Source: Chitinophaga pinensis | GTDB lineage: Bacteria; Bacteroidota; Bacteroidia; NS11-12g; UBA955 | Length of the DNA stretch: 64,000 nt | Assembly: GCA_945888525.1 (NCBI GenBank) | Contig: CAMDAF010000001.1 | Span: 1-64,000, forward strand | Reading direction: 5' to 3' | Shown: in pieces, positions 13 through 55,802 of the stretch | Position numbering within the stretch: position 1 is the stretch's first letter | How the letters are laid out: every line of letters starts with the position of its first letter | Made by a program: the position numbers and the translations under genes | Notes under the pieces: model-generated | Seen by the model: only the letters and a program-made list of their open reading frames with translations | Database searches by the model: none | What the model was told of the DNA's origin: nothing

Positions 13-147
13 TTAATTTGTTTCTGAATAACTATCGTTTTGAGGATCCTTTGGTGGGGTTCTTAATACTTTGATGAAGTAATATAAGGTCATAAAGGTA
101 ATCACAGCAAAGGATGCCACCATGGTTATAAGTGCGCTGGTATTCAT
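13..147 (-). CDS. MetS-like small subunit of NSS transporter (44 aa)
   Basis: This 44-codon gene starts with ATG at 147 and ends at TAA 13-15. Its start overlaps the TGA stop of the large NSS transporter gene (ATGA), so the two are very probably translationally coupled. The peptide begins MNTSALITMV and has one hydrophobic segment (about residues 5-28), followed by a short polar tail containing Pro-Pro-Lys-Asp-Pro. Small single-span proteins directly behind NSS transporters belong to the MetS/MaAIMP small-subunit family, described for the MetPS methionine/alanine importer of Corynebacterium. The assignment rests on position, size and the Met-x-Thr-Ser-Ala-Ile/Leu type start, not on an alignment. 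It would be an inner-membrane accessory needed for transport. Confidence 0.65.
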   Translation of the reverse strand: MNTSALITMVASFAVITFMTLYYFIKVLRTPPKDPQNDSYSETN

Positions 148-5244: not shown

Positions 5245-6225
5245 ATGAAAAAGGGAAAAAAAGACTTTAGAAATAAATTGTTTATCAAAGATCTTGAAAA
5301 CATAAGCGGAATCAAAGCCCATACGATTCGTATTTGGGAGCAGCGCTATAAAATATTCGAACCACATAGAACCGATACAGGAATTCGTTATTACGACGAA
5401 GACCAATTGCGTTTGATTCTGAATATTTCAATATTGAACAACAATGGGTACAAAATTTCCAAAATAGCGGAAATGGGCCTTGATGAAATTCTCGAGAAAT
5501 GTCAACAATTGTCTGAAAACAAGTCAAAGTATGATGGGCAAATTCAAGCACTCATAAGCACCATGATGATGTTTGATGAAAAGGAGTTTAACAAAATTTT
5601 GTCCATTAATATTTTGAAATTGGGCCTAGAGGATACTATGACCCAGATTGTTTTTCCTTTTATAGCACAAATTGGTTTGTTATGGCTTTCTGGTTCCATT
5701 CACCCAGCGCACGAGCATTTTATCTCAAATCTTATTAGACAACGTTTGTTTGTTGCCATAGATAATTTGTCGATACGCCCAAGCAGTGATTCAAAGAAGT
5801 TTTTAGTCTTTGTGCCTTCGGGTGAGTCTCATGATTTGAGTATTTTGTTTGCTAATTATGTGCTGCGTTCTCGCGGACATGAGGTCATTTATCTCGGTTC
5901 TCAAACACCATTCGAAGACCTTTACAAAATTTTCGACCTGCGTAAACCCGATTTCATTTTCAGTATTATTACGTCTTTGAACAGCAATGTGAGTGTTCAA
6001 ACTTTTATCAATAACCTCGGCAAATATTGGAAAGAGACACAAATATTGCTTTCTGGTTCTCAGGTATCGAACAAAAAGGATTTGAAATTAGCCGAAAACA
6101 TTCGAATATTTAGTAACCCTGGCGATTTGCTTGAATTTTTGGTGGAAATTAAAGAAAATCTTAAATACAAAAATTCAATCAAAAGTTTTTCTCAACAAAA
6201 CAATACAAACAATACGGGCTTCTAA
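5245..6225 (+). CDS. MerR-family regulator with cobalamin-binding domain (CarH/LitR-like photoreceptor)
   Basis: A 326-residue transcription factor. Residues about 12-80 form a MerR winged helix-turn-helix (FIKDLENISGIKAHTIRIWE, then RYYDEDQL). Residues about 100-175 resemble the helical B12-cap domain, with the CarH-type W-x9-E-H signature: Trp147, Glu157, His158. Residues about 185-300 form a Rossmann-like B12-binding domain with GESH (His196 at the lower-ligand position) and GHEVIYLGS. In CarH/LitR, adenosylcobalamin keeps the repressor tetrameric in the dark, and light breaks it up. Those residues are all kept here, so a light-responsive repressor of the divergent epimerase-photolyase operon is the natural reading. 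Its TAA overlaps the next ATG by one base (TAATG). No carotenoid genes are adjacent, unlike many LitR loci. Confidence 0.9.
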   Translation: MKKGKKDFRNKLFIKDLENISGIKAHTIRIWEQRYKIFEPHRTDTGIRYYDEDQLRLILNISILNNNGYKISKIAEMGLDEILEKCQQLSENKSKYDGQIQALISTMMMFDEKEFNKILSINILKLGLEDTMTQIVFPFIAQIGLLWLSGSIHPAHEHFISNLIRQRLFVAIDNLSIRPSSDSKKFLVFVPSGESHDLSILFANYVLRSRGHEVIYLGSQTPFEDLYKIFDLRKPDFIFSIITSLNSNVSVQTFINNLGKYWKETQILLSGSQVSNKKDLKLAENIRIFSNPGDLLEFLVEIKENLKYKNSIKSFSQQNNTNNTGF

Positions 6226-7952: not shown

Positions 7953-10118
7953 ATGGCTAAAAAGAAACTAAAAACCCATAGGTTGGAGAGCGAAATACTA
8001 AAAGTACTTACCGAAAATCAAGGGAAAATCTTGAACCATAAGCAAATTTTTGCAAGGTTGGAATCCAGCGATTTGCCGAAAAGCGCAGAAGATATTTTGC
8101 CGGTTTTATTGGAACTAACCGCCAGCAACAAAATTGGCCGCAAAGACACTTATAAATTTTACAAGCACAGCCCACGCAAAACCGTTCAAGGGCAAATTGA
8201 TATCACCCGCAATGGCCGTGTTTTTTTGAAAGTTGAAGGGGTTGAAGACGACTATGTTGTAAACAATTCTCTGATCAATCTTTTGCCTTTTGATGTTGTC
8301 GAGGCTGAAGCTTCGCAAGCCAATAAAAAGAAATTAACAGCAGATGTGTTAAGTTTGGTTTCTCACAGCGACAGAATGTTTGCAGGGGTTCTACTTTTAA
8401 AGCAAAATACATGGCTGATCCAGCCAGATAATTCCCGTTTTCAAACCCCGTTTTCTGTTGATGCATCTCCGTTGTTTAAAGTTGGGAATAAAGTTTTATT
8501 TAAAATAAAAGAATTTAGCCGCAACAAACATTATCCAACAGCTCAAATAGCAGAGGTACTAGGAAAGCCGGGAGAGCACAAAACCGAAATGCATGCCATA
8601 CTCGCTGAGTTTGGTTTGCCTGAGGCATTTAACGCTGAGGTGCAAGAAGCCTCTGATTCTGTAGCGGAAGAAATTACAGCAAAGGATTTAAAAGGTAGAG
8701 AAGATTTTAGAAAGGTTTTAACCTTTACGATTGATCCAGATACAGCCAAAGATTTTGATGACGCCATTTCTTACCGAAAATTGGAAAATGGAAATTATGA
8801 AATCGGCGTGCATATTGCCGATGTCAGCCATTATGTTTTGCCCGATAGTGTATTAGACAAGGAAGCACTTAACCGTGCGACCTCTGTTTATTTGGTCGAT
8901 AGGGTTGTGCCTATGCTTCCGTTTTCTTTGTCTGACATAGTCTGTTCTTTGGTTCCTCATAAAGACCGCTTAACTTGCTCTGCTGTTTTTGAAATTAATG
9001 AAAGCTTTGAAGTGCTCAAAACGCATTTTGCAAAGACAGTAATTCATTCTGATAAGCGTTTCAGCTACGAAGAAGCACAAGACATATTAAATGCGGGCTC
9101 AGGAATTCATTTTGAAGAATTGGAGCACCTCAACCGTTTTGCAAAACATTTGTCTAAGAAGCGCTTTGCCGATGGCGCAATGAATTTTGAGTCCACTGAA
9201 TATAAATTCATGTTGGATGAGGATTTTAAACCGATTTCTTTGCAATTAAAAATTAGACAAGACACCAACAAACTTATAGAGGAATTGATGCTCTTGGCCA
9301 ACCGCTCGGTGGCTGAATTTGTTTATGAGCAAAAGCCAAGAAAGCCATTTGTGTATCGAACGCACGACGAACCGTCTGATTTGCGCTTGCAAGAATTGAA
9401 ACGATTTGTTGCCCGCTTTGGTTATAATATTGATATAGAAAATGAAAAGACCATTCGCCGTTCATTGAATAAGTTATCCGAGGATGTGGAAGGTAAGCCC
9501 GAACAGGATGTGATAAGAACAATGAGCATAAGAAGCATGGCCAAAGCAACTTATACCAGCAACCGACCAAGCCATTTCGGTTTGGCCTTTAACCACTATA
9601 CCCATTTCACCTCTCCAATTAGACGTTATCCAGATGTGGTTGTTCACCGTTTATTGTTTGCTTATTTGGATGGCAAAACCATGGAACAGGCCTGCAATTG
9701 GAATATGGAAAAATTGGATTTTGCATGCAAGCAGAGTTCTAAAATGGAAATTCAAGCCTCTGAGGCTGAGCGCGCATCGATTAAATACAAGCAAGCTGAG
9801 TGGATGGAACAACAAGTTGGAAAACAATTTAAAGGCGTTGTTAGTGGTATGGCTGATTTTGGTATATTTGTCGAAATAAAAGAATATAAATGTGAAGGAA
9901 TGATTCGCTTAAGCAACATACCAGGAGACCATTATGAATTTGACAGTTATTTAATGGCGGTTGTTGGCAACAGGTCTCACCGCCAATTCAAAATGGGGGA
10001 TGAAATTGATGTCATCGTCAGCGCAGCAAGTAAAATTAAAAGAACCATAGATTTAGAAATAATCTTAGACTCACAAAACCATAGTCAAAATGTCAGAAAA
10101 CATCGTCGCTTCAGATAG
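7953..10118 (+). CDS. rnr: Ribonuclease R (RNB-family 3'-5' exoribonuclease)
   Basis: A processive exoribonuclease that degrades structured RNA and participates in RNA quality control. Visible parts are an N-terminal helical/winged region, cold-shock-like OB domains, and the RNB catalytic domain with the metal-binding aspartate cluster IDPDTAKDFDDAI (about residues 258-270). The RNB segment FTSPIRRYPDVVVHR follows, then a C-terminal S1 domain (FKGVVSGMADFGIFVEI) ending in a basic tail (RKHRRFR). The size (about 721 residues) is usual for Bacteroidota RNase R. I chose the ATG at 7953 because the -7 box ends at 7944. The last 29 bases overlap the polyprenyl synthase gene in another frame, so the two are probably one operon. 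Confidence 0.95.
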   Translation: MAKKKLKTHRLESEILKVLTENQGKILNHKQIFARLESSDLPKSAEDILPVLLELTASNKIGRKDTYKFYKHSPRKTVQGQIDITRNGRVFLKVEGVEDDYVVNNSLINLLPFDVVEAEASQANKKKLTADVLSLVSHSDRMFAGVLLLKQNTWLIQPDNSRFQTPFSVDASPLFKVGNKVLFKIKEFSRNKHYPTAQIAEVLGKPGEHKTEMHAILAEFGLPEAFNAEVQEASDSVAEEITAKDLKGREDFRKVLTFTIDPDTAKDFDDAISYRKLENGNYEIGVHIADVSHYVLPDSVLDKEALNRATSVYLVDRVVPMLPFSLSDIVCSLVPHKDRLTCSAVFEINESFEVLKTHFAKTVIHSDKRFSYEEAQDILNAGSGIHFEELEHLNRFAKHLSKKRFADGAMNFESTEYKFMLDEDFKPISLQLKIRQDTNKLIEELMLLANRSVAEFVYEQKPRKPFVYRTHDEPSDLRLQELKRFVARFGYNIDIENEKTIRRSLNKLSEDVEGKPEQDVIRTMSIRSMAKATYTSNRPSHFGLAFNHYTHFTSPIRRYPDVVVHRLLFAYLDGKTMEQACNWNMEKLDFACKQSSKMEIQASEAERASIKYKQAEWMEQQVGKQFKGVVSGMADFGIFVEIKEYKCEGMIRLSNIPGDHYEFDSYLMAVVGNRSHRQFKMGDEIDVIVSAASKIKRTIDLEIILDSQNHSQNVRKHRRFR

Positions 10119-11067
10119 TTTTGAAGCGTATTTAATCTCTCATCCGTTTTTAGGGAAACCCGAAAACCTATACAATCCCATGAACTATATCATGCAATTG
10201 GGAGGTAAAAGAATGCGTCCAAAATTGCTTTTGTTGGCTTATCAAAGTGTGAATGGCCATCCTGGTAAAGACGTTTATCAATTGGCACTTTCAATTGAAG
10301 CTTTTCATAATTTCAGTCTTTTACACGATGATATAATGGACAATGCCCCTATCCGCAGAGGCAAAAAAACTGTTCATGAAGAATGGAACACTGCCACTGC
10401 AATTTTGGCCGGAGATAATTTATTAATCCAATGCTATGATCTAATTCTTAAAACCAGTTTGCCGAATAAACCAGAACTTTTGAATGAGTTTAGCATTATG
10501 GCAACGCAAGTTTGTGAAGGTCAACAAATGGATATGAATCTTCCAACACAAGAGCATATTACAGATGAAGAATATTTGCAAATGATTCGTTTAAAAACTG
10601 CGGTATTACCGGCTTGCGCGCTCAAAATGGGTGCACTTGCCGCCAACGCAAGCATGGATAGAGCAGATGTTTTTTACGATTTCGGTTTGAATTTGGGTAT
10701 GGCTTTTCAATTGCAAGATGATTTTTTAGATACCTTTGGCAGCAGCGAAGAAACCGGTAAGCAGGAGGGTGGTGATATCATTGAAAACAAAAGAACATTG
10801 CTTTTCTTACACGCAATGCGCACATTGACTGGAAGCGATAAAGAGGAGTTGTTGCATTGGTTCAACGAGAAACCTGACAATCCTAGCAATAAAATTGATA
10901 GGGTTAGGACTTTGTTTAAACAAGCCCAAAGCGATCAGTTTTTAATGAACTTAAAAGCGGATTTCGAAATGCATGCACTTGCAAATATTGATATTGCTTG
11001 CGAAAACTCGAGCAATAAAGCCCATGTATTGGCCTTGTTTGATTTGTTGAAAACCAGAAAAGCATAG
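10090..11067 (+). CDS. Polyprenyl diphosphate synthase (isoprenoid chain elongation)
   Basis: A trans-prenyltransferase of 325 residues that condenses isopentenyl diphosphate with allylic diphosphates. Both aspartate-rich motifs are present: LLHDDIMDNAPIRRG (first, DDxxD) and LQDDFLDTFG (second, DDxxD), together with GGKRMRPKLLLL near residue 40 and the Lys-Thr segment RLKTAVLPACAL. Chain length (farnesyl, geranylgeranyl or longer) cannot be fixed from the sequence by eye. The start overlaps the RNase R 3' end by 29 bases; the next ATG in frame would cut into the conserved N-terminal helices, so the overlap is probably genuine. Confidence 0.93.
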   Translation: MSENIVASDSFEAYLISHPFLGKPENLYNPMNYIMQLGGKRMRPKLLLLAYQSVNGHPGKDVYQLALSIEAFHNFSLLHDDIMDNAPIRRGKKTVHEEWNTATAILAGDNLLIQCYDLILKTSLPNKPELLNEFSIMATQVCEGQQMDMNLPTQEHITDEEYLQMIRLKTAVLPACALKMGALAANASMDRADVFYDFGLNLGMAFQLQDDFLDTFGSSEETGKQEGGDIIENKRTLLFLHAMRTLTGSDKEELLHWFNEKPDNPSNKIDRVRTLFKQAQSDQFLMNLKADFEMHALANIDIACENSSNKAHVLALFDLLKTRKA

Positions 11068-11123
11068 TTTTTTCATGTCTTCACATCGTTAACAAACGCT
11101 TTTAGTCCTCCCCAATTATTGTG

Positions 11124-11131
11124 TATATTTG
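11124..11131 (+). promoter_or_regulatory. -7 promoter element before DUF3817 gene
   Basis: TATATTTG matches TAnnTTTG exactly and lies 22 bases before the ATG at 11154. It covers an in-frame upstream GTG (11121), which is why that longer reading was discarded. Confidence 0.5.
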
Positions 11132-11153
11132 TACCATTAAGTTGATGCAAATT

Positions 11154-11435
11154 ATGGACAAACAAATTAGGAATTTTCTTTTAACAGGTAAAATTGAAGG
11201 GTATAGTTATTTAATTCTATTATTGGTTGCAATGCCATTAAAATACCAATTTGACCTACCACAAGCAGTGAAGATTTTTGGAATGGTGCATGGTGTTTTG
11301 TTTGTTTTGTTTATGCTAAGCATTGCAGCTTTAATTGGCGTTAAAAAATTGAGTTTTAAAAAGGCATTCTTTGCTTTTTTGCTTTCCTTAGTTCCTTTCG
11401 GAACGTTTTATTTGGAAAGGCTTATCAAAAAGTAG
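11154..11435 (+). CDS. DUF3817 family small integral membrane protein
   Basis: A protein of 93 residues with three hydrophobic segments. It begins MDKQIRNFLLTGKIEGYSYL and continues through the KIFGMVHGVLFVLFM segment that typifies DUF3817 (YdzA-like) proteins, ending in a basic ERLIKK tail. The function of the family is unknown. An ATG at 11145 in the same frame is an alternative start three codons earlier. The gene has its own -7-like element and so may be transcribed separately from the preceding prenyl synthase gene. Confidence 0.8.
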   Translation: MDKQIRNFLLTGKIEGYSYLILLLVAMPLKYQFDLPQAVKIFGMVHGVLFVLFMLSIAALIGVKKLSFKKAFFAFLLSLVPFGTFYLERLIKK

Positions 11436-19764: not shown

Positions 19765-21239
19765 ATGCTATAATTTTTGTTTTTACAAACTCCGCTTTCC
19801 CTGCCACGGTCTTTAATGTCAACGAGCAATGCCTTAAAGCTCAAAAATTGATTTTTGAACTTAAATTTGACGAGGCCGAAAAGATTTTACAATCTGAAGG
19901 TCAATTAAACAAGGAAAACATTGCCGTTCCGTGGCTTTCTGAATCCATCCTGTTTTTAAAGCTGTTTATTTCTGAGGATGCTGAACTTTATGAAAAATCA
20001 AATAAGAATTGGTCAAATCTAATCTCTCAAACTGAAGAATATTCTTTTAACAATGCGTGGTACCGGCATATTTTATCTGATATGTTTATCCACAGGGCAC
20101 TTATCAGATTCAAATTCAATGAAAATTTTTCTGCTGCTAATGATATTCAAACTGCATTTAAATATTTAAAGGAAAACAAGAAAATGTTTCCGTCTTTTTT
20201 AGCCGATAACAAAAATTACGGGCTGTTATGCTGTGTCTTTAGTTCAGTGCCATCAAAATACCAATGGCTGGCCAAAATGATAGGCTTTGAGGGCGATATG
20301 CAAACGGGCTTAAAAGAAATTGAACTGTATTTAAAAAGTGATCAAACCTACAAAGAGCATGCTTGTATGAGGTTGGAAGCGACGTTTATATATGGAATGA
20401 TACAACACCATTTAAATAAAAACTCCAGTATTGCATGGTCAACGATTGAACCTTTAACACGCAACTTTAAAAGCCATTTGCTGCAAAATTACATGCGTGC
20501 CGTAATTGCGGGCTATAACGGCATGAATGATGACATGATTGATGTTTTAAAAAGTAAGCCACCATATCAAAACGCTTATCCATTCTACTACATGGACTTT
20601 ATGTTGGGGCTGGCAAAAATGCGAAGACTCGATGCAGATGCAGATTTGTATTTCAAGATATTTACAGTGAAATACAAAGGGAAGAATTACCTTAAGTGTG
20701 CCTACAGAAATTTGTCATGGTTGTGTCAACTCAAAAATGATGATAATGGCGCTAAAACCTACTATTCGTTGGCTTCCAAAAAAGGGATAGCAGCAATTGA
20801 AGAAGATAAGCATGCCCAAAGTGAAGCTGAAGAAAATATTTTTTGGCCGGCCGATGTGCTCAAATCTAGGTTGCTTTTTGATGGCAAATACTACGTTTTG
20901 GCAATGAAAACAATTAAGTCTATCGATGAAAACAAATTAAACCATATCCGCTTTAAATTAGAAGTGATTTATAGAAAGGCCCGAATCCAACACGAAATCG
21001 GAAATCTAGATGAAGCGATTGTCTTATATCAAAATGTAATTGAAGAAGGTGCAAAAAAGAAGTATTATTATGCTGCTTATTCTGCACTTCAAATTGGATT
21101 TATATATGAGAAAAAAAATAAGTTTGAACTTGCTAAAATTTATTTCGAAAAAGCAAAGAAAGATTTCACAGACAATAAGGAATATACAAATAGTATAGAG
21201 CAGAAGGCGAAAGCAGGGCTTAAAAGAATTGGGAAATAA
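19740..21239 (+). CDS. Secreted TPR-like repeat protein, unknown function
   Basis: A protein of 499 residues from the ATG at 19740. A signal peptide (MYKRVLFFYAIIFVFTNSAF) is followed by helical repeats. The last 130 residues are clear tetratricopeptide units (RKARIQHEIGNLDEAIVLYQ; YAAYSALQIGFIYEKKNKFE). It belongs to a class of Bacteroidota periplasmic TPR proteins with no assigned role. An ATG at 19710 would add ten residues and place the signal peptide further inside, so the later start is preferred. The start lies within a terminator-like hairpin. The bulk of the protein is Lys/Asn-rich and AT-rich like its neighbours. Confidence 0.82.
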   Translation: MYKRVLFFYAIIFVFTNSAFPATVFNVNEQCLKAQKLIFELKFDEAEKILQSEGQLNKENIAVPWLSESILFLKLFISEDAELYEKSNKNWSNLISQTEEYSFNNAWYRHILSDMFIHRALIRFKFNENFSAANDIQTAFKYLKENKKMFPSFLADNKNYGLLCCVFSSVPSKYQWLAKMIGFEGDMQTGLKEIELYLKSDQTYKEHACMRLEATFIYGMIQHHLNKNSSIAWSTIEPLTRNFKSHLLQNYMRAVIAGYNGMNDDMIDVLKSKPPYQNAYPFYYMDFMLGLAKMRRLDADADLYFKIFTVKYKGKNYLKCAYRNLSWLCQLKNDDNGAKTYYSLASKKGIAAIEEDKHAQSEAEENIFWPADVLKSRLLFDGKYYVLAMKTIKSIDENKLNHIRFKLEVIYRKARIQHEIGNLDEAIVLYQNVIEEGAKKKYYYAAYSALQIGFIYEKKNKFELAKIYFEKAKKDFTDNKEYTNSIEQKAKAGLKRIGK

Positions 21240-21718
21240 AAAAACGGATATTTCAATTCAGAAATACCCGCTTAATTGTTATTGTGTGTTTTCGTGTTAC
21301 TCTGTTTTGACCAGTAAATTTTCTTCTTCATGATTTGTGTAATTTGTGTGTAAATAAAGCCCTACATGCCTGTTATTTAGGGGCATATATAAGGTTTCTT
21401 CTCCCATTGAGTATAAAAACTTATGTATTGTAACAAGCATATATTCAATTTCATACTTGTTCTTAATAAAACAAATGTTTTTTGCTATTAATAGCTTAAA
21501 GTTCTGTAAATCAAAATGAAAAAAAATATTTACAGCAGTTATTTTCTGCCGATTTTTCCATAGTTCCTAAATATTCTAGATTTTATATATTTGCTCAATC
21601 CATATTTTAATGATAATATTTAAACTATTTTAAATTATGCAAAATAATTGTATCTCACCCGTTGAAACAACATAAAAAAAGCACCCTTTTGAGGTGCTTT
21701 TAATTTAAAAGATTTTTT
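21240..21718. other. 479-base intergenic region, AT-rich
   Basis: There is no gene of ordinary length on either strand. It holds an 8-bp inverted repeat (CTGTAAAT at 21504-21511 and ATTTACAG at 21528-21535), an exact -7 box TATATTTG at 21586-21593 on the plus strand, a 12-codon reading frame (21637-21675), and a hairpin terminator for the gene on the right. The promoter-to-terminator stretch of about 100 bases could encode a small RNA. Confidence 0.5.
21672..21704 (-). terminator. Bidirectional terminator after the lipoprotein gene
   Basis: The stem AAAGCACC/GGTGCTTT (21678-21685 with 21693-21700) has a seven-base loop. On the minus strand it is followed by seven T residues and lies just past the lipoprotein stop; on the plus strand TTTTAATTT follows, so it may also end a short rightward transcript. 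Confidence 0.8.
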
Positions 21719-22273
21719 TTATTGGATTCGACAATTGAATTCTATTTCAATGTCGGTCTCACCCAATGCTGGATCTCCATTTTTAATTCCAGGTTGGTGT
21801 TTTAGAACTACTTTTAATTTACCATTACTGCTTGTTCCAGTACTCCAAATACTTTTTAAACCAATTGGCAGTCCATTTTTGTCAAGGTCGTTCAATTTTA
21901 TGGCCATATTTAAGTTGCTTACAGTTAAGTTGAATAAATGGTCTTCGCCTTCATTTAAAACCTCATTGCTTATGGTATCCACTGCAGCTTTGCTTTCATC
22001 AAGTAATAGAAGGTTTACCGAATAGGTTCTGTTTGGGCTCAATTCTATGCTGTCGAATTGGCTTGGCGCGTTACCACCTTCTCCATCGGTATCCTTGAAT
22101 TTAAATATACTCTTTTGACCGCTTGCGCTATCCGTGGCTTCGATAATTAAGGTTGTAATTAACTCACTTTCATTTACTGGGGCCGTATTCGGTTTAGGGT
22201 CTTTTTCGCAGGCTTGCAAGCCCGTTAGGATGATGGCAAGTACTAAGGCAATTTGTTTCATTTGTTTGTTCAT
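21719..22273 (-). CDS. Outer-membrane lipoprotein partner of TonB receptor ('type 1 periplasmic binding fold' family)
   Basis: A lipoprotein of 184 residues with a signal and lipobox ending at Cys22 (TGLQAC). The mature part carries ELITTLIIEATD, FKDTDGEGGNAP and LNEGEDHLFNL, a pattern I know from Bacteroidota lipoproteins named type 1 periplasmic binding fold superfamily protein. These are regularly encoded next to a TonB receptor of the type found here. The protein is only about 180 residues, far too short for a real type 1 periplasmic binding protein, so that name is doubtful. It sits 13 bases after the receptor gene and is the last gene of the cassette. It probably helps the receptor bind its ligand, likely a metal. 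Confidence 0.82.
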   Translation of the reverse strand: MNKQMKQIALVLAIILTGLQACEKDPKPNTAPVNESELITTLIIEATDSASGQKSIFKFKDTDGEGGNAPSQFDSIELSPNRTYSVNLLLLDESKAAVDTISNEVLNEGEDHLFNLTVSNLNMAIKLNDLDKNGLPIGLKSIWSTGTSSNGKLKVVLKHQPGIKNGDPALGETDIEIEFNCRIQ

Positions 22274-22286
22274 TTGTTTGTTTATT

Positions 22287-24578
22287 TTAATTTTGTTTTT
22301 GGTTTATGTTCATTGTTAGTCTGGCGCTTATGTTTATGCCAGGTTCATCGGTAAAATATCTAAATCTGTTCAGATAGTCCCTGTAGCTGCTGTTTCCAAT
22401 ATTGCTGCCGGTTAATCCGCATTTAAAATTTTGTCCCACAGCTTTGAATTCATAATTCACCTCAAATCCAATTAAAGCATAGGCTTCTGGTGGTGGCATA
22501 AAGTCGCTTCCTACAACATAACGGCTTTGTTTGGATTGGTAATTTACCCAAACTTCAGCATTTAAAGTTCTGTGTTTGTATCCAAGGCTCAGTTTGCCAT
22601 TCATGGACGGCATTAGATTTAAAGCATCTTTTGTATCTATATTCTGTCCATATGGCAATTGTGCACCTATAATGGTATACATAGATTTGTGCACTTGGTA
22701 TTTCCATCTTGCATTTAAACCGTAAAGTGCCGCCTTGTTCTGCTGGTACTGAAAAACAGGGTAGGCCCCCCTAATGGTTAAAATGACTTTATTACTTGGT
22801 ATTAAATTGATGTATCCATTTACAATTTGGTAATAGCCTTCAATATCAAATTTGTGCTTTTTTAGATCTAAACTATAGTTCAATGACTGGCTATAGGAAC
22901 GTTCTGTCCGCAAAGTGCTATCGCCAATTTCAATGCTCGCCAATCCTTGATGCAGTCCGTTCGAGTATAATTCATTTGGTGCAGGTGCTCGCCATGTAGA
23001 GGATTGTATAAAACTGATTTTCTCTTTACCGCTTAATTGGTATTCCGCCTTCAATACATACGCAAATCCTGAATAGTTCACTTGTGTTTTGTTCGATACA
23101 GCTCCAATCCATCTGTAGATATCAAAATGCTTTTGGTCGTACCGCAATGATCCCTCAATGTCAAATTTCTTAAATTGTTTGTTACCTATTACAAAACCCG
23201 CAAAGCTGTTTTGGTAAAAACCAGGAATAAAAAATCGCCCAGTGTATGCATTCGATTGTCTTAATCCAATAAGTCCAGCTTTCCAATTGATTTTATGAAA
23301 TGGACTCTTAGTCCATACCAATTCGGCAAAACTGCTACTTATGTAATAATCAAATGAAGGACCGGTAAATGAATTGGCAGAGCGCAAGACATCGTATTCT
23401 TCTCTATGGTTTTTCTGATAGGACAGGGTCAGTTCAATTTTGTTTTTTGCATTAACTTGTAATGCATTCTTGAATTTCAACATCTTGTGTTGAACCAATT
23501 GATAGGGTCTGTCAATTTGATTGGTGAAATTGGCTTTTATCAATGGTGTTCCGCTGTTCATTGCTTTTTCTAGGTCAGATAAATTGCCAACCTGAGAACC
23601 CGTATAAATTCCAATTTTGTTCTGAAATTCACTGTAAAACACTTCGCTTAGAAATCCTTTTCTTTGAAATCCTAAATTAATTGAATAATTAAACTCAGAC
23701 ATGCCTGTATTGGCTAAGTAGTCTTTAGAGGTTTTAATGTTGCCAAACTGTTTGATGCTGCTTTGAACCCTGATGTATATCGGCAGATTTTTACTGAGCA
23801 CTCCACCCAATATGAGGTTGCCAGTTTTACCTCTGCCATTGCTATTTCCTGTTAAATTGATTTCGCCATTTAGCGACTTTGGTTTTTCAGTGAATATGCT
23901 TTTGGGACTGATTCTAATAACCCCTCCAATTCCGTCTGCCCCATAGCGCAATGATTCGGCGCCTTTAATAAGCTCGATTTCTGAGGCTAAAAATGCATCA
24001 ATTTCAGGTGCATGTTCCATCCCCCAGTTTTGCCCCTCCAAGCGTATGCCGTTGTTCACTATAATTACTCTATTGCCAAACAATCCATTGACCATGGGTT
24101 TACTTACGGCAGAACCCGTTTTTAATAAACTAATTCCAGCAATATCTTGCATTAAAGAGGAAATGCTTTGGCCTTTCCTATAGTCCATGTTTTTAGCATT
24201 TAAATGGTTCAAATCTTCCAATTTTTCTAGTTTAGCGCTGAGTTTAAAACCTATTAGCTCTTTCTCTATATGTCTAAGAAATATTTTAATTAAAGTATCT
24301 GAGCGCAATTCTAATACAATATGGATGTGCTCACAGTTCAGGTGACTGATATGCACTTCATATCTTCCAGGACATAAGCCACTCAATGTGAATTGACCTT
24401 TGCTGTCTGTTTTAGTTTCTTTTTCTATAGAATCTATAGATACAATGGTGTTGCTCAAGGCAACCTGTTCGAAGCTGTCTTGTACAATACCGCTTATTTT
24501 GATTTTGCAGTTTATGTTTTGAGCATTCACAAATACGAATGCAAACAGGCCTAAGGCCAATAATATTGTTTTTTTCAA
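22287..24578 (-). CDS. TonB-dependent outer-membrane receptor, probable metal uptake
   Basis: A receptor of about 763 residues. I start it at TTG 24578 (then KKTILLALGLFAFVFVNAQ, a signal peptide); a TTG at 24608 is an alternative, and no ATG is available. After the signal come a carboxypeptidase-regulatory-like domain, a plug domain (GSAVSKPMVNGLFGNRVIIV, then NNGIRLEGQNWGMEHAPEID and IKGAESLRYGADGIGGVI) and a 22-strand-type barrel ending SARLTMNINQKQN. The plug sequence resembles receptors that sit with a small lipoprotein and a His/Cys-rich secreted protein, which points to zinc or copper. Ligand identity is inferred from neighbours only. Energy would come from the exb/tonB operon at 55-58 kb. 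Confidence 0.92.
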   Translation of the reverse strand: MKKTILLALGLFAFVFVNAQNINCKIKISGIVQDSFEQVALSNTIVSIDSIEKETKTDSKGQFTLSGLCPGRYEVHISHLNCEHIHIVLELRSDTLIKIFLRHIEKELIGFKLSAKLEKLEDLNHLNAKNMDYRKGQSISSLMQDIAGISLLKTGSAVSKPMVNGLFGNRVIIVNNGIRLEGQNWGMEHAPEIDAFLASEIELIKGAESLRYGADGIGGVIRISPKSIFTEKPKSLNGEINLTGNSNGRGKTGNLILGGVLSKNLPIYIRVQSSIKQFGNIKTSKDYLANTGMSEFNYSINLGFQRKGFLSEVFYSEFQNKIGIYTGSQVGNLSDLEKAMNSGTPLIKANFTNQIDRPYQLVQHKMLKFKNALQVNAKNKIELTLSYQKNHREEYDVLRSANSFTGPSFDYYISSSFAELVWTKSPFHKINWKAGLIGLRQSNAYTGRFFIPGFYQNSFAGFVIGNKQFKKFDIEGSLRYDQKHFDIYRWIGAVSNKTQVNYSGFAYVLKAEYQLSGKEKISFIQSSTWRAPAPNELYSNGLHQGLASIEIGDSTLRTERSYSQSLNYSLDLKKHKFDIEGYYQIVNGYINLIPSNKVILTIRGAYPVFQYQQNKAALYGLNARWKYQVHKSMYTIIGAQLPYGQNIDTKDALNLMPSMNGKLSLGYKHRTLNAEVWVNYQSKQSRYVVGSDFMPPPEAYALIGFEVNYEFKAVGQNFKCGLTGSNIGNSSYRDYLNRFRYFTDEPGINISARLTMNINQKQN

Positions 24579-24657
24579 TTGATATAAATTGATTCCTTCT
24601 AGATACAATCATAAAAGGAAGGTGAAAATAAAGGTCAAACGTTTAGAGTATATTCTA

Positions 24658-24966
24658 CTATGCGTTTCTAGGGGGGCCTTTATTTGCAAGACTCCAATGG
24701 TACTTTATTGGACTTGCATCAATTTTTATTTGAAGATAATTGTTTTCTTGCTTATTGAGACAAGTAAGATTATTGCTGTTGTTAGAAAAGAAACTGTGAA
24801 ACTGTAAATCACATAAATAACAATGTGCATGCGGGTTTTCTATAGTTGCACTTTCGTGGCTATGGTTTAAGTTGCTGCAATTGTGAAGTGATTGTATAGG
24901 TGTGCTGTATGCTAGAACCAAGCCTAGCATCATAAAGGTTAGGATATATTTTTGTATCCTTTTCAA
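24658..24966 (-). CDS. Small secreted His/Cys-rich protein, probable metal handling
   Basis: A protein of 102 residues with a signal peptide (MKRIQKYILTFMMLGLVLAY). The mature part contains HNCSNLNHSHES, HAHCYLCDLQFHSF and a later Cys, giving several His residues and four Cys. Short secreted proteins with His runs and a Cys-x-x-Cys are common beside TonB metal receptors in Bacteroidota and probably bind or buffer the metal in the periplasm. It lies seven bases after the preceding gene and about 80 bases before the receptor start, consistent with one operon. The metal-binding role is inferred from composition and context. Confidence 0.75.
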   Translation of the reverse strand: MKRIQKYILTFMMLGLVLAYSTPIQSLHNCSNLNHSHESATIENPHAHCYLCDLQFHSFFSNNSNNLTCLNKQENNYLQIKIDASPIKYHWSLANKGPPRNA

Positions 24967-24973
24967 TTGTAAA

Positions 24974-25297
24974 TTAAGCGGCTGTCATGTTGTTGGCAAT
25001 CTCTCTGATCTCGTCTCTATTGTACTTGTTGTCGCTTTTGGCGTACAATGAAACCAAGTAACTTAGATTTTCTTCAACCTCTTCGCTGTCTTCTAGGGTT
25101 TGGAATTCCCAACCACTATTAGACTCTAAATGTTCATTCACCAATCGGATTGAGCGGGTAATTAATGGGTCTTGTTCAAGTTTAGCCATCTCTCTTAGCT
25201 CTGTGAACATAGGGACCAAATTTGCTACCTTTACGCTATTGGTTTCTATTTCTTTGATGATCTTTTCGATCAATTCATTTGCTTTTGAACTTTTCAT
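24974..25297 (-). CDS. Unrecognised small helical protein, first gene of the metal cassette
   Basis: A soluble protein of 107 residues that is acidic and rich in helices (KSSKANELIEKIIKEIETNS; SEEVEENLSYLVSLYAKSD). It has no signal peptide, membrane segment or known motif that I can see. Seven bases separate it from the His/Cys-rich protein gene, and an exact -7 box (TAAATTTG, 25326-25319) lies about 20 bases upstream, so it leads the cassette 107-aa protein, His/Cys-rich protein, TonB receptor, lipoprotein. Coding use matches its neighbours. I do not recognise the family. Confidence 0.7.
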   Translation of the reverse strand: MKSSKANELIEKIIKEIETNSVKVANLVPMFTELREMAKLEQDPLITRSIRLVNEHLESNSGWEFQTLEDSEEVEENLSYLVSLYAKSDNKYNRDEIREIANNMTAA

Positions 25298-25318
25298 ATC
25301 TCAGATTGCAAAGTAAGG

Positions 25319-25326
25319 CAAATTTA
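25319..25326 (-). promoter_or_regulatory. -7 promoter element of the metal cassette
   Basis: On the minus strand TAAATTTG is an exact TAnnTTTG match 21 bases upstream of the ATG at 25297. It follows directly after the terminator of the preceding minus-strand gene, so the cassette begins a new transcript here. Confidence 0.5.
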
Positions 25327-25352
25327 ATGAATGATAAAAGTGGAAAATAGCC

Positions 25353-25389
25353 AAAAAAAAACCATCAACTTTCGGTTGATGGTTTTTTA
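25353..25389 (-). terminator. Bidirectional intrinsic terminator
   Basis: The stem ACCATCAAC/GTTGATGGT (25361-25369 with 25375-25383) has a five-base loop and T runs on both strands. It lies 20-50 bases past the stop of the T9SS cargo gene and separates it from the metal cassette. Confidence 0.88.
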
Positions 25390-25406
25390 TAATATTTGGG
25401 GGATTA

Positions 25407-26162
25407 TTATTGAACGCTAACTTTGTTGGTGCTGATAATGTCGCCATTAACAACTCTTACCATGTAAATTCCTTTGGCATAGCTAGAAGAGTTAATTTCA
25501 AATTCGTTTGCACTTGCTTTAGTTTCGGTGTAAACCACACGGCCATTCATGTCGGTGATGGTAACTTGAACATCAGCTTTAGAGTCAACAGCGTTTAACG
25601 CAATTACAAAGCTGCCAAGAGCTGGGTTTGGATAAACTGACATGTTGTTGGTGTAAACAGTGTTTACAGATACGCCCCAGCCTTGTGGGCAGAAATAAAT
25701 GATTGGCCTAACTTTTATATTGTTTGCGTTGGTACCTGTGCCTTCTGGAGTGATAGGGTCTGAACCAGAAAATTTTCTAACTTCAGAGTACGCTTGGAAA
25801 CTGCAGTTGAAAGACAATGTAGCTCTAAGTGCGGTGTTTAATGAACCTTTCCAGTGAATGGTATCACCAGGTGCCATTGTTTTTCCTACCGCTTTTAATA
25901 CGATTTGTGTTGAACTTGGGTAAGCAAAAAGCAAAGTGCTTCCAGAGAAACAAACCAATTGCAATGCCATAGTATCAGTTGCGTTTACAGTACCTGTGCC
26001 ATTGTTTTTCAAAACAATATCGTAATTAAATGCTGTTCCTGTAGAAGTACTTCTTAATTCAGTTGGGGCGTCAATTGAAACAACTGACCAGTCAATTGTT
26101 CTAGCAGAAAATCCTAAGGTTGCAACCATTGCAAAACTTAAAGTTAGTAAAATTTTTTTCAT
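25407..26162 (-). CDS. Secreted protein with type IX secretion C-terminal sorting domain
   Basis: A protein of 251 residues. A signal peptide (MKKILLTLSFAMVATLGFSA) is followed by a beta-rich domain of about 150 residues resembling an immunoglobulin-like or CARDB fold (FNYDIVLKNNGTGTVNATDT). A T9SS type A sorting domain of about 75 residues comes last: MSVYPNPALGSFVIAL, DVQVTITDMNGRVVY, GIYMVRVVNGDIISTNKVSV. Such proteins pass through the Sec system, cross the outer membrane by T9SS, and become attached or released. The binding target is unknown. The gene has its own promoter and terminator and is monocistronic. Confidence 0.9.
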   Translation of the reverse strand: MKKILLTLSFAMVATLGFSARTIDWSVVSIDAPTELRSTSTGTAFNYDIVLKNNGTGTVNATDTMALQLVCFSGSTLLFAYPSSTQIVLKAVGKTMAPGDTIHWKGSLNTALRATLSFNCSFQAYSEVRKFSGSDPITPEGTGTNANNIKVRPIIYFCPQGWGVSVNTVYTNNMSVYPNPALGSFVIALNAVDSKADVQVTITDMNGRVVYTETKASANEFEINSSSYAKGIYMVRVVNGDIISTNKVSVQ

Positions 26163-26187
26163 TGTATTTTTATTTAATATCTTACTA

Positions 26188-26218
26188 CAAATGTATCATT
26201 TTCAATTTAATCGAGCAA
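26188..26218 (-). promoter_or_regulatory. Promoter of the T9SS cargo gene
   Basis: On the minus strand TTG (26218-26216), a 20-base spacer and TACATTTG (26195-26188) fully match the Bacteroidota promoter consensus. The upstream half lies inside the last codons of the SNF2 helicase gene. Confidence 0.75.
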
Positions 26219-29176
26219 GACATTAAGTGTATCTTCCTCTAAATTGTTTACAAAATGAACTTCTGTGTCTAAAATATCATCCGAAACTTTCTGCTTTTTC
26301 TCTTGCAAATTGACAATTTTCTCCTCAATAGTGTCTTTGGTGATGAATTTGTATACAAATACGGGTTTGTCTTGGCCAATCCTATGTGTTCTATCCATAG
26401 CCTGCCTTTCAACCGCTGGATTCCACCATGGGTCCAATAAAAACACGTAGTCTGCAGCTGTTAAATTTAATCCCGTTCCTCCGGCCTTTAAAGAAATTAA
26501 AAAGATAGCTGCTTCATTGCCTGTCTGAAATCTGTCTACCAGTCTCTTCCGCTCCAAAGCTGGGATATTTCCTGCTATATAGTAGTAGGGAATTTCTTGC
26601 CCATCTAAATGGGTTTTGATTAAGGCCAGATGTTGCACAAATTGCGAAAACACCAACACCTTATGGCCTGATGATACAACATTGTTTAGACTGTTGATGA
26701 TCTCGTCAAATTTGCCAGAAACTCCCGAGTAATCAGATTCAGCCAAAATTGGGTGGTTTGCAATTTGTCTTAATTTAATCAATCCATTCAAGATCAATAA
26801 ATTTGATTTTTTAAACCCATTCTCTTGAATTGAATCTAACAATTCATTCCTAAACAAGGATTTGATGCGCTCATATTTTTGCTTCTGTTCTTCTGACATC
26901 TCACACAAAACAATCTTTTCAGTTTTGCTTGGCAAATCAGAGGCAACCTGTTCTTTGGTTCTTCTTAATATAAATGGTCGAACGATGTCTTTTAAACGCT
27001 TAGTGTCTTCTTCATTGCCTTCTTTTTCAATCGAACTGACAAACTTTTTGCTGAAGTAATTAAAATTACCCAAAATTCCAGGGTTTAAAAAGTTGATCTG
27101 ACTCCATAAATCGGTGATACTGTTTTCTACAGGGGTTCCAGTCATCACAATCTTGTGCCTTGCTCTGAGCTGGTTAACCGAAGCAGCGGTTTGTGAACTC
27201 GGATTTTTTATGGCCTGCGACTCATCCAAAACAATGGAATTGAATTCGATTTTTGAAAATAAGTCAATGTCATTCCGAACTGTTCCATAACTGCTTACAA
27301 TTATGTCGTACAACTTACAAGCTTCTTTTATATGGCGTGTTCGATTAAAGCCTGTATGGACATATACTTTTAAATTGCTGTATTTCTTGGCCTCACTTAA
27401 CCAATTGTATATCAGAGAGGTAGGCACAACCACCAAACTGCAGGAATGGGTTTCTTGTGCGCCGCTATTTTCCAGCGTACCCGAAGCCCCTTGCTTAAAA
27501 AGATTTAGCTGATTCCGTAGCACCGATTCTTGATCCGCTGTATGCCCGGATATTGGGATTGGCTCACAAGTTTCTTTTCTGTACTGTAAATAGGTTAAGA
27601 CTTGTATGGTTTTACCCAAGCCCATGTCGTCGGCCAAGCATGCACCGAAATGCTGTTCATTCATATAGCGAAGCCAGTTGTATCCTTCTATTTGGTAGGG
27701 CCTTAAAGTGGCTTTTATCCCTTTTGGTAAAGGATAATTATTGCTCTTGTCAAATGGCACAATGTTTTCAGAACTGGACATTTCGTCTTCTTCAAATATC
27801 CCTTCAAGCAATCCGAAATGGTATTTTTTTATTTGCAAATGGTTTGCCCGCTGATCTGCAAAATCGAACAAACTCGAAAAGCGCGTAAACCACTCTTCTG
27901 GAATAATCGCAATACTGCCATCAGGTAATTCAAACTCTCTGTTTCCACTTAAAATGTATTGCTTCAGTTTTATAAAGGGAATTTCAAATTGACCAAACTT
28001 TACAACCGCTTCCAAATCAAACCAATCTTTGTTTTTAGAAATCTTAAACGACACATTGCTGTCTCCAATATGGTAACTGCGGCTCAAAGTGCTTTGGTCT
28101 ATAACCATACCTTGTTCCTTTATCTCAGTTCTGTTTCTATTCAATAGTGAAATCAGACTCTCTCGACTGTTTTCTGGAATAAACAGAGAACCTTCATGCA
28201 CTTTTAAGCCCATTTTGCTCAAAACATTGACAATAATATTTTCCCATTGCTTCGAACGCTTTACCCTGTGAAATATATAATTGTCGCCTTTTTTTTCTAA
28301 AGAAACCGAAACCATTTTTTGCGAATGGTAGGGAAACTGATAGGGGCCGTAATTGAAATACAAGCCGGCACATAATCCTTTTTCGCCAAAACTGGTGAGT
28401 TTTAAAATAGGGTAGGCCCGGTATTGTTCCGACTTTATCTCAAATCCTTCAGCGTATACATCGTAGTTTTCGACCAAGGGTTTTACGAATTTCTCAAAAT
28501 ACACCCCTTCGCTTTGTCTGGGAATGCTGATGAATTTTTTCAATAAAAATGGCTTTATCTTATTGCCATCGGTGTCTTTTTTAAAGGTAATTAATTGTTT
28601 GTTGCACAGCAACCAAGCTGGTTCGTGGATAATCAACTCGCTATCGTTCTGGCTAAAGCTAATTTTTTGATCACCCAATTTGATGGTCGCGAAATAATTG
28701 GTGCCCACTTCCGAACGCCTGAAATGAAACAATATACCTGCTTTCTCTTCGGCGATGTGTATTCGGGTGTGTGTAAAGTTTTTGTCTTTGCCCAAAAATA
28801 ATTTCTGCGAATCCAAGCGCTCCAATACCTTTAATATACGCTTTTCTATATAGGGGCGGATTTTCGCATGTATTTCTGGTGTGTAATGTTTGCTGAAAAA
28901 ATCAACCGAGCGTATGGGTTTTTTGCTCTGATGGAATTTTTTTATCAATGCATCTGGCTCCGTTTCGTCCAGTATTTTAACTAAGTCTGAGGTCTCTTTA
29001 TCGGCCCCAAAATCTTTAGCCGTGTTGTGGTGGACTTTCTGGCTCAGCAAACTGTAATACCCATTCGGCATCAACTGCACAGCAATCGACTCAAGCAAAT
29101 ACCCCAATTGCGGGTGCTTGTACAAGCTGAAAACCATTTCAAATGGTTCTTTGGTATTTACACGAATGTTTCCCAT
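26207..29176 (-). CDS. SNF2-family DEAD/DEAH-box helicase
   Basis: A protein of 989 residues. The N-terminal half (about 1-480) is the bacterial SNF2-associated region. The C-terminal ATPase has LRPYQIEGYNWLRYM, the Walker A segment ACLADDMGLGKTIQVLTYL, DESQAIKN (the DEAH-type Walker B), MTGTPVENS, the second RecA lobe with SLKAGGTGLNLTAADYVFL, and DRTHRIGQDKPVFVYK. Bacterial SNF2 enzymes of this form move along double-stranded nucleic acid or remodel protein-DNA complexes; RapA and HepA are relatives. The specific role is unknown. It has a fully matching promoter and no operon partner. Its 3' end carries the promoter of the following gene. Confidence 0.94.
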   Translation of the reverse strand: MGNIRVNTKEPFEMVFSLYKHPQLGYLLESIAVQLMPNGYYSLLSQKVHHNTAKDFGADKETSDLVKILDETEPDALIKKFHQSKKPIRSVDFFSKHYTPEIHAKIRPYIEKRILKVLERLDSQKLFLGKDKNFTHTRIHIAEEKAGILFHFRRSEVGTNYFATIKLGDQKISFSQNDSELIIHEPAWLLCNKQLITFKKDTDGNKIKPFLLKKFISIPRQSEGVYFEKFVKPLVENYDVYAEGFEIKSEQYRAYPILKLTSFGEKGLCAGLYFNYGPYQFPYHSQKMVSVSLEKKGDNYIFHRVKRSKQWENIIVNVLSKMGLKVHEGSLFIPENSRESLISLLNRNRTEIKEQGMVIDQSTLSRSYHIGDSNVSFKISKNKDWFDLEAVVKFGQFEIPFIKLKQYILSGNREFELPDGSIAIIPEEWFTRFSSLFDFADQRANHLQIKKYHFGLLEGIFEEDEMSSSENIVPFDKSNNYPLPKGIKATLRPYQIEGYNWLRYMNEQHFGACLADDMGLGKTIQVLTYLQYRKETCEPIPISGHTADQESVLRNQLNLFKQGASGTLENSGAQETHSCSLVVVPTSLIYNWLSEAKKYSNLKVYVHTGFNRTRHIKEACKLYDIIVSSYGTVRNDIDLFSKIEFNSIVLDESQAIKNPSSQTAASVNQLRARHKIVMTGTPVENSITDLWSQINFLNPGILGNFNYFSKKFVSSIEKEGNEEDTKRLKDIVRPFILRRTKEQVASDLPSKTEKIVLCEMSEEQKQKYERIKSLFRNELLDSIQENGFKKSNLLILNGLIKLRQIANHPILAESDYSGVSGKFDEIINSLNNVVSSGHKVLVFSQFVQHLALIKTHLDGQEIPYYYIAGNIPALERKRLVDRFQTGNEAAIFLISLKAGGTGLNLTAADYVFLLDPWWNPAVERQAMDRTHRIGQDKPVFVYKFITKDTIEEKIVNLQEKKQKVSDDILDTEVHFVNNLEEDTLNVLLD

Positions 29177-53734: not shown

Positions 53735-53745
53735 TCTGAAACAAC

Positions 53746-54618
53746 ATGAGAAAATATATATTTAGACTAACTTTCGCTCTAAGCTCAGCCTTTTTTTTGA
53801 GCGCTTGTGAAGATTCAATAGATTTAGATTTGGGGGTACCGGTGGATCAAATTGTTATCGATGCGGTAATCAATCAAACATCAGATACACAATTCATTAA
53901 AATCACAAAGTCAATTGCTTACCTAGACAATGGTACTTATAAAGGATATGAAATGGATACCGTTGGAGTTTTAGATACATCAAATTTTGTGTTTCATCAA
54001 TTCACTTATAAAGGAAATGGGGTGTATTATTTTGTACCTAGTTCTCCCGATGTCTTTAAATTTGGAAGCACTTACCAATTAATTGCCAAAGATGGCGCAG
54101 ATACTTATTTTTCTCAAAGCACATTAAATTCACCAACAAGTATCGATTCATTTACCTATTCGTACAAAGAAAGAGGATCATTTGGCGGACCTAAGGGCAA
54201 TTACATCACCCTTTGGGCAAAAGACAAGATAGGGAAGGGCGATTTTTATTGGTTTAAATTGTTTAGAAATGACAGTTTACAAGCAAAAGCGGGAGATATA
54301 TTAATTGCCCAAGACAATTCAACAACTGCGGATGGAAGGGGTGATGGCGATTTGTTTATTGTGCCTATAAGAGATAATTTTACTTCACGACCATTTAAAC
54401 CTGGTGAAACAGCAAGAGTTGAAATTCTCAGCATCACCCCAGAAATGTATTACTATTTAAATTTGATCAGTACACAATTAAACAATAGTGGTTTGTTTGC
54501 CGTTCCTCCGAGTAATATTCCTAGCAATATAGTTTGTCTCAATGATCAGAAGAAAAAAGTACTTGGCTTTTTCTGCATGACAGGGAAGGTGAGTACCCAA
54601 AAATTATTGATCAATTAA
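53746..54618 (+). CDS. DUF4249 family lipoprotein, partner of the TonB receptor
   Basis: A lipoprotein of 290 residues (lipobox ending at Cys21, FFLSAC). The start of the mature protein (EDSIDLDLGVPVDQIVIDAV) and the pattern of beta strands (VFHQFTYKGNGVYYF; TYQLIAKDGADTYFSQSTL) are typical of DUF4249, which is restricted to Bacteroidota. These proteins are nearly always encoded directly after a TonB receptor of the type found here and probably cap it, like SusD on SusC. The true ligand is unknown. A long AT-rich gap follows. Confidence 0.9.
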   Translation: MRKYIFRLTFALSSAFFLSACEDSIDLDLGVPVDQIVIDAVINQTSDTQFIKITKSIAYLDNGTYKGYEMDTVGVLDTSNFVFHQFTYKGNGVYYFVPSSPDVFKFGSTYQLIAKDGADTYFSQSTLNSPTSIDSFTYSYKERGSFGGPKGNYITLWAKDKIGKGDFYWFKLFRNDSLQAKAGDILIAQDNSTTADGRGDGDLFIVPIRDNFTSRPFKPGETARVEILSITPEMYYYLNLISTQLNNSGLFAVPPSNIPSNIVCLNDQKKKVLGFFCMTGKVSTQKLLIN

Positions 54619-54978: not shown

Positions 54979-55773
54979 ATGAGTCAAGCGCAAGTTAAAA
55001 AATCTACAAATTGGGTTAGTATTCTTACAATTCCCGCAGCATTAATCGTATCAATCTTATTATACATGTTTGTATTCGGAGATCCTGATAACTTCAATGC
55101 CGATCATTCACCAAAAGAAGGCAATTTCTTTGCAATCATTCACGAAGGTGGTGTTATCGTTCCAATTCTAATGACCTTATTCTTAACAGTATTTACGGTT
55201 GTTATTGAACGTTTAATTACTGTTTATTCAGCTAAAGGAACTGGTTCATTAGAAACATTCTTACAAAAAGTTAAAACCAACCTTAACAGCGGACAAGTTG
55301 CTGCTGCTTTAGTTGATTGTGACAAACAAAAAGGTTCTGTTGCAAACGTGGTTAGATCAGGTTTGAACAAATATGCTGAAATGGAAAAAGATACTGCACT
55401 TGAAAAAGAGCAAAAAGTGTTGGCTATCCAAAAGGAAATGGAAGAAGCTACTTCATTGGAATTGCCAATGTTAGAGAAAAACTTATCTATTCTAGCGACC
55501 ATCGCATCCGTTGCGACATTGGTGGGTCTATTAGGTACTGTAATCGGTATGATCAAGGCGTTCTCTGCTTTGGCTACTGCAGGTACGCCTGATCCGGCTG
55601 CATTGTCTGCTGGTATTTCTGAAGCCTTAATCAACACAGCCATCGGTATCGGTACTTCTGCTGTTGCGATTATTTTCTACAACGTATTTACTGGAATGAT
55701 TGACAAATTGACCTATGGTATTGATGAAATAGGTTTCAGTATTTCTCAAACATTTGCTTCAAAGAACAAATAA
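54979..55773 (+). CDS. exbB: MotA/TolQ/ExbB proton-channel protein
   Basis: An inner-membrane protein of 264 residues. After an N-terminal membrane span (VSILTIPAALIVSILLYMFV), a second span (VIVPILMTLFLTVFTVVIER) is followed by a cytoplasmic helical region and the conserved pair of spans LSILATIASVATLVGLLGTV and GISEALINTAIGIGTSAVAI, with the TLVGLLGTV...INTA motifs of the channel. With ExbD it uses the proton gradient to power TonB. It begins the operon exbB, exbD, exbD, tonB, small protein, PstS-like, TPR. Confidence 0.95.
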   Translation: MSQAQVKKSTNWVSILTIPAALIVSILLYMFVFGDPDNFNADHSPKEGNFFAIIHEGGVIVPILMTLFLTVFTVVIERLITVYSAKGTGSLETFLQKVKTNLNSGQVAAALVDCDKQKGSVANVVRSGLNKYAEMEKDTALEKEQKVLAIQKEMEEATSLELPMLEKNLSILATIASVATLVGLLGTVIGMIKAFSALATAGTPDPAALSAGISEALINTAIGIGTSAVAIIFYNVFTGMIDKLTYGIDEIGFSISQTFASKNK

Positions 55774-55802
55774 GACCTGCATACTGGTAATTATTCCAAA
55801 AC

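Follow-up and report, generated by a model that had tools for sequence, protein, structure and literature searches.

How is a putative metal-uptake operon regulated when no metal regulator gene is recognised in it? We took up this question at a four-gene cassette of Chitinophaga pinensis (GenBank assembly GCA_945888525.1, contig CAMDAF010000001.1; positions 1 to 64,000 were analysed and are called the window), which an original prediction, made from the letters alone, had read as one promoter driving a 107-residue protein (p107), a secreted His/Cys-rich protein, a TonB receptor and a small lipoprotein. The four open reading frames (ORFs) lie on the minus strand at 25297-21719, exactly where they had been placed. 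We propose that the regulator is the His/Cys-rich protein, very likely a leader peptide of the type of CruR, a short ORF of Bordetella pertussis; the fuller statement, that such a leader controls the receptor gene with zinc as the favoured metal, is one towards which we lean. The claim that the cassette has no metal regulator gene is thus probably wrong, the protein itself resembling a regulator (an arrest peptide) and not a chelator.

Conservation of the probable leader peptide

The features that carry the argument are as follows.

24658-24966, minus strand: 102-residue protein rich in His and Cys, read as a CruR-like leader and a candidate arrest peptide that senses a metal (alignment, motif spacing, relation to DUF2946)
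24811-24822, minus strand: CxxC of the leader (Cys49, Cys52), candidate metal site, unchanged throughout the 22-leader and 48-leader alignments
24670-24681, minus strand: KGPP codons of the leader, residues 96-99 after Asn95, candidate arrest site; P98 and P99 are invariant in 22 and 48 leaders
24609-24657, minus strand: gap between leader and receptor genes, in which no terminator-like site was found, proposed place of the metal-dependent switch
22287-24608, minus strand: 773-residue TonB-dependent outer-membrane receptor of the heme/ZnuD class (Pfam Plug, NCBIfam scores)

The leader ORF starts with TTG, 7 nucleotides (nt) downstream of the p107 gene. Its N-terminus was judged hydrophobic by eye, its CxxC stands 43 residues before KGPP, and it ends K-G-P-P-R-N-A, three residues after the proline pair. 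Larger stretches of 40 relatives were taken from p107 matches, giving 41 loci with the window, some of which stop within or short of the TonB gene. A homologue of the leader was found in 24 of the 41 (window counted), between the p107 and TonB genes in the neighbourhoods listed. The 22 leaders that were aligned share 12-87% identity with the window copy; Met1, CxxC and the Pro pair near the C-terminus are the sole columns without variation, His28 is nearly invariant, and most tails read N-[KR]-[GAS]-P-P. In 22 of the 24 homologues CxxC and [KR][GAS]PP are separated by 43 residues; the other two have 44 and 45, and the stop follows PP after 2-7 residues. A C-terminal [KR][AGS]PP occurs in 24 of the 1238 small six-frame ORFs of these loci, and all 24 belong to the leader family. 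This motif and its fixed distance from CxxC had been overlooked in the original prediction.

A profile of the 22 leaders gave matches in 46 of 395 genomes across the phylum and in 41 of 59 relatives (E-value up to 0.01); judged by sequence, the leader family occurs across Bacteroidota. We fetched 60 loci around profile matches, where 57 ORFs fit the pattern CxxC-(40..48)-[KRHQN][AGS]PP-(0..12)-stop; eight of 65 profile-detected ORFs fell outside it; CxxC is altered in some of these eight, and one is plainly a false match. The leaders of close and distant loci, pooled, numbered 98, or 95 once identical sequences were dropped. In the 95 the spacing ran from 41 to 47 residues (the pattern permitted 40-48), with a mean of 43.3 and a standard deviation of 1.07, compared with a standard deviation of 10.6 for the length before CxxC. 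At least two His lie within the 30 residues before CxxC in 94 of the 95. Across 48 phylum-wide leaders the mean column identity is 17%, with CxxC and the two prolines still invariant.

The motif is RAPP in 36 of the 95 leaders, RGPP in 21, KGPP in 19, RSPP in nine, KAPP in five and KSPP in five, so that its first position holds Arg (66) or Lys (29) and nothing else, although the pattern permitted five residues. Asn precedes Lys in all 29 Lys-type leaders and precedes Arg in three of 66, a contrast whose significance is inflated by relatedness among the leaders. The Lys type is present in loci of five families (f1, f2, f3, f4 and f26) and is possibly a variant arrest motif. In five further ORFs (L177:7166-7534, L178:7374-7769, L168:7670-8065, L158:7411-7731 and L175:7314-7664) RGPP or RSPP is kept and CxxC is altered (e.g., a single Cys beside His, CPIS/CPIV); these possibly have another ligand or are dead sensors.

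A TonB gene directly follows 32 of the 57 pattern-matching leaders and lies within five co-directional genes of 44; six have no co-directional gene inside 350 nt. Three loci (L147, L154 and L173; e.g., L147:7574-7909 and 10865-11176) carry two leaders per operon, one for each TonB receptor: an RSPP-type leader precedes a His-rich lipoprotein and a ZnuD-like receptor, and an NKSPP-type leader then precedes the second receptor. Consecutive RAPP leaders separated by 80 nt were seen at L151:5192-5506 and 5587-5961, and DUF2946-type leaders at L258:1486-1908 and L264:1345-1743 are followed by exported proteins of 381-451 residues, porin-like by eye.

Relation to CruR and the metal that may be sensed

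CruR, predicted to be exported, has a CXXC, 45 residues, RAPP and three final residues, and lies ahead of a TonB receptor gene that is controlled by the ribosome stalled on CruR (PMC9426467). Mutation of RAPP abolishes receptor expression; mutation of CXXC strongly impairs the copper response, and insertion of five residues between the two motifs also impairs it (PMC9426467). The arrest has been demonstrated in vitro, the ribosome halting with its P site on the third RAPP codon and its A site on the fourth (PMC12992588). The window leader has the CXXC and a spacing within two residues of that in CruR. The Pfam family of CruR, DUF2946 (PF11162), is the one matched by most leaders, namely 13 of 48 phylum-wide (E-value up to 1, best 3.3e-5), and by two of the 22 close homologues (best 0.0022). 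Above-cut-off DUF2946 matches are found in five of 296 genomes of the phylum. One leader (G189) was recognised twice, by the 22-leader profile (E-value 4.9e-8) and by DUF2946 above cut-off, and comparison of the 22-leader alignment with Bacteroidota DUF2946 matches by hhalign gave 96.8% (E-value 2.7e-10). The window leader itself has no DUF2946 match, yet its relatives and the profile-profile comparison link the two families; on these sequence grounds it is probably a distant relative that works like CruR, and not a member of DUF2946.

By analogy, when the metal is scarce the ribosome on the leader would stall at the C-terminal NKGPP codons, and the stalled ribosome would keep the genes behind the leader, for the TonB receptor and the lipoprotein, switched on. 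At 43 residues from the stall site, the CxxC/His segment would lie just outside the ribosome. When the metal is sufficient, it would bind this emerging segment, the bound metal would pull the chain free and relieve the stall, and receptor expression would drop. With zinc as the most likely metal, the operon would serve outer-membrane zinc uptake under nascent-chain control. No intrinsic terminator was found in the leader-receptor gap, and Rfam matched no RNA element across 21000-26500. Rho, a possible off-switch, is present in the window genome (619 bits), and in all 17 loci leader plus gap is richer in C than in G, which would fit a Rho site; after amino-acid composition is discounted, a Rho site read from this excess is weak, and we rejected it.

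Several observations weigh against a CruR-like mechanism. Besides the missing DUF2946 match, the window motif is KGPP and not RAPP, in other peptides RAPP no longer causes arrest once its Arg is exchanged for Ala (PMC10951233), and we found no test in the literature of Lys at this Arg position. The window leader is the second gene of its operon, as in the f1 relatives, and not the first, and the gap to the receptor gene is 49-79 nt here compared with 162 bp in Bordetella. The C excess at third codon positions averages 0.61, compared with 0.54 and 0.58 in the neighbours, and is above both in 16 of 24 loci. Finally, counting leaders by the motif pattern is partly circular.

For the metal, we looked at the genes behind the leaders. 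One leader (L136) heads a gene for ZigA, a metallochaperone for zinc (608 bits, cut-off 600); of the 57 leader operons, three contain COG0523 GTPase genes and five contain ABC-2 genes (permeases with DUF3526), four of these five with a TonB receptor. Some leaders head an ABC-2 ATPase, a TonB receptor and two permeases, the layout of Caulobacter znuGHI/znuK; DUF3526 matched only Caulobacter among 14 control genomes. In Caulobacter, znuK and znuGHI are repressed by Zur, mutants of the receptors znuK and znuL do not grow under severe zinc starvation, and the czrCBA efflux operon, which zinc activates, begins with a gene for a DUF2946 protein (PMC4176598). AztD-like (E-value 6.9e-22) and DUF4625 proteins also recur near leaders. 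The window receptor matches Pfam Plug (PF07715, E-value 9.5e-13, 49 bits, cut-off 23.9) and CarboxypepD_reg, which bears out the TonB receptor that had been predicted. Its NCBIfam scores, all under cut-off, are 98.9 bits for TonB-hemin, 94.7 for ZnuD (NF038289, cut-off 950) and 50.1 for TonB-copper (TIGR01778, cut-off 472); ZnuD outscores TonB-copper in the window and in nine of ten other receptors, the tenth matching neither at threshold. ZigA, the znuGHI/znuK-like ABC-2 genes, the AztD-like proteins and the ZnuD-like receptors behind leaders speak for zinc over copper, and, given a CruR-type leader, we consider zinc reasonably likely to be the metal. The original zinc-or-copper assignment of the cassette gains support from the CruR-like leader and from the zinc genes near its relatives.

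Other facts speak against zinc: CruR senses copper, with a moderate zinc effect (PMC9426467), and the window genome yielded neither ZnuA nor DUF3526, nor, at the E-value applied, a match to ZigA. It has one Fur-family protein. Leaders stand near three of 30 ZigA loci and none of 30 TonB-copper-like loci (30 examined per class), which points to zinc, but the counts are too few for significance. The same leader mechanism could serve copper, as a Bacteroidota CruR over a copper receptor. The characterised member answers copper through its CXXC and proteobacterial homologues head copper operons (PMC9426467), and CxxC is a known copper motif; we nevertheless consider copper unlikely in view of the empty TonB-copper-like loci, the TonB-copper scores below those for ZnuD, and the zinc-type genes that recur behind leaders. 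No copper family is among the families matched by at least two of 80 co-directional neighbours, a view that covers 25 of 65 families, the other 40 being single matches. A copper class for the window receptor was likewise not favoured, given its low TonB-copper score and the leaderless TonB-copper-like loci.

Less probable still is a role of the His/Cys-rich protein in the periplasm, as a chaperone or buffer from which the receptor system would receive its metal, its C-terminal PP being incidental. The hydrophobic N-terminal segment, the many His and the co-occurrence with the receptor would suit such a role. Against it, the sequence is barely conserved across the 48 leaders while the C-terminal motif and spacing are kept, this motif has no obvious use in metal carriage, and CruR went undetected in proteomes (PMC9426467). 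Just as improbable, or a shade more so, is a leader that senses redox/disulfide state or another metal (iron, cobalt, nickel) via CxxC/His: in other bacteria, genes for thioredoxin and DsbA-type proteins too have RAPP/RGPP leaders in front of them (PMC12992588), one leader operon (L140) has an HmuY gene and the receptors are equally close to heme receptors and ZnuD, but the recurrent nameable neighbours are zinc-type and the abundance of His outside CxxC suits a transition metal.

We return to the CruR-like, probably zinc-responsive leader. A broader proposal is attractive, if rather short of probable: that Bacteroidota widely use a family of zinc-sensing arrest peptides, CruR-like in build and tuned to zinc by His around CxxC, to govern zinc uptake at the outer membrane with no DNA-binding regulator, and that NK[GAS]PP, with Asn-Lys where RAPP has Arg, is an arrest motif in its own right. 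If the zinc branch holds across Bacteroidota, nascent-chain metal sensing would be a general alternative to Zur-type repressors, short His/Cys-rich ORFs otherwise read as hypothetical secreted proteins would gain a role, and NK[GAS]PP would offer a natural variant for the study of ribosome stalling.

The remaining genes of the operon

The other features of the cassette, from 5' to 3' of the operon, are listed here.

25356-25388, no strand assigned: terminator-like hairpin (stem of 15 pairs, T-run) separating the operon from the upstream gene for a cargo protein of the type IX secretion system (T9SS)
25307-25316, minus strand: TTACTTTGCA, candidate -7 promoter element 5' of the p107 gene, conserved, bar minor differences, in the 13 same-genus loci aligned
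24974-25297, minus strand: p107, cytosolic helical protein of 107 residues, single-copy gene of the order (homologues, AlphaFold2 model)
21719-22273, minus strand: 184-residue lipoprotein with a domain rich in beta-strands (alignment; AlphaFold2 predicted local distance difference test, pLDDT, 85)
21677-21701, minus strand: terminator-like hairpin 3' of the lipoprotein gene (hairpin scan)

The order p107, His/Cys-rich protein, TonB receptor was found again in relatives, so the cassette is far from a chance arrangement, and the four genes are bounded by hairpins, as expected of the unit originally described. A single promoter for the operon is plausible because the element just 5' of the first gene (TTAnTTTGCA type) is kept, slightly altered, in the same-genus loci; we infer that TTACTTTGCA is the promoter element, and to that extent the single promoter of the original prediction stands. 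For the receptor, a start at the TTG at 24578 is more likely than at 24608, as the protein then begins like a signal peptide. Directly 5' of the operon, at 25407-26162, lies a protein with a T9SS sorting domain; matches at the equivalent place in relatives range from about 27% to 84% identity, with the flanking genes conserved.

Pfam gave no above-cut-off family for p107, the His/Cys-rich protein or the lipoprotein of the window, in keeping with p107 having been called a protein of no known family. Homologues of p107 occur in 56 of 59 relatives and in only four of 148 genomes of a phylum-wide sample, the window genome among them. Where a genome has both p107 and the leader, the two genes adjoin in all 28 cases in family f1 and in none of 11 in the sister family f2, where the loci read have p107 beside prfB or other genes (L062-L070, e.g., L062:8130-8462 and 9257-10288; release factor 2 by eye, near p107 in several of them). 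Adjacency in f1 and its absence in f2 argue that p107 is probably outside the metal system, and as a functional partner of the leader it was rejected as our main explanation. Its place in the cassette therefore holds locally, in f1, and not in f2. Some f1 loci (L048, L049, L050, L054 and L057) have p107 directly before the TonB gene with no leader detected, which counts against this rejection, and a role specific to f1 is possible. In our reading p107 is a core gene, and the cassette makes use of its promoter. Its AlphaFold2 model (pLDDT 96.6) has five helices. Foldseek gave no match with an E-value below 0.001, and a likeness to the four-helix bundles of CheA P1/Hpt (best Z 10.5, 2.6 A, 96 residues) is at a level that is uninformative for helical bundles; an alignment of 33 p107 sequences has no invariant or nearly invariant His.

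Many relatives carry, behind the receptor gene, a gene similar to that of the window lipoprotein, and such a gene is present in 12 of the 57 leader operons. The fold of the window lipoprotein did not identify it: the best Foldseek match to the model has an E-value of 0.0097, and nothing was convincing. Elsewhere on the contig, ORFs at 54979-57871 resemble ExbB, two ExbD and TonB by eye, a possible energiser for the receptor, and at 51356-54618 a lipoprotein-like gene comes after a second gene that resembles a TonB receptor gene.

Comparison with known systems

CruR, presented as the first characterised transition-metal-responsive upstream ORF (uORF) (PMC9426467), is the closest parallel. Its receptor, BfrG/CrtA, has the copper-responsive uORF upstream. 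The window leader shares with it an N-terminus that is hydrophobic by eye, the CXXC, a C-terminal x-small-Pro-Pro, a near-equal spacing (43 and 45), the count of three residues to the end and the TonB receptor gene that comes next. It differs in having no Pfam match, in carrying Asn and KGPP in place of RAPP, in its richness in His and in its zinc-type genomic links; it is also preceded by a core gene, and the third gene is a lipoprotein where that of CruR is PepSY_TM.

The RAPP/RGPP arrest peptides (ApdA, ApdP and SecM-like) are short exported ORFs upstream of a regulated gene and have a C-terminal R/K-small-P-P, an arrangement that the putatively exported window leader shares. A 2025 survey in EMBO J (PMC12992588) reported TonB-linked RAPP/RGPP uORFs for Gram-negative bacteria generally; it counted RAPP and RGPP, and described some groups, Bacteroidota for instance, as lacking the Cu-related class. 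The Lys-type motif and a link to zinc are absent from the portions of that survey consulted. A zinc-responsive bacterial arrest peptide was not recognised in the literature searched, a statement limited to that search, and the portions consulted of a paper on zinc in Riemerella contain nothing about a leader. CutF of Rhodobacter capsulatus, a nascent exported sensor of copper, likewise detects a metal at the level of translation and bears a proline motif at its C-terminus; it controls a multicopper oxidase. The likeness of the window receptor to ZnuD and Caulobacter ZnuK is one of receptor class by score only (94.7 bits, cut-off 950), and the likeness of leader operons to Caulobacter ZnuGHI/ZnuK is one of gene layout. 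Zur exerts control in Caulobacter, whereas for the leader operons we propose control by the nascent peptide.

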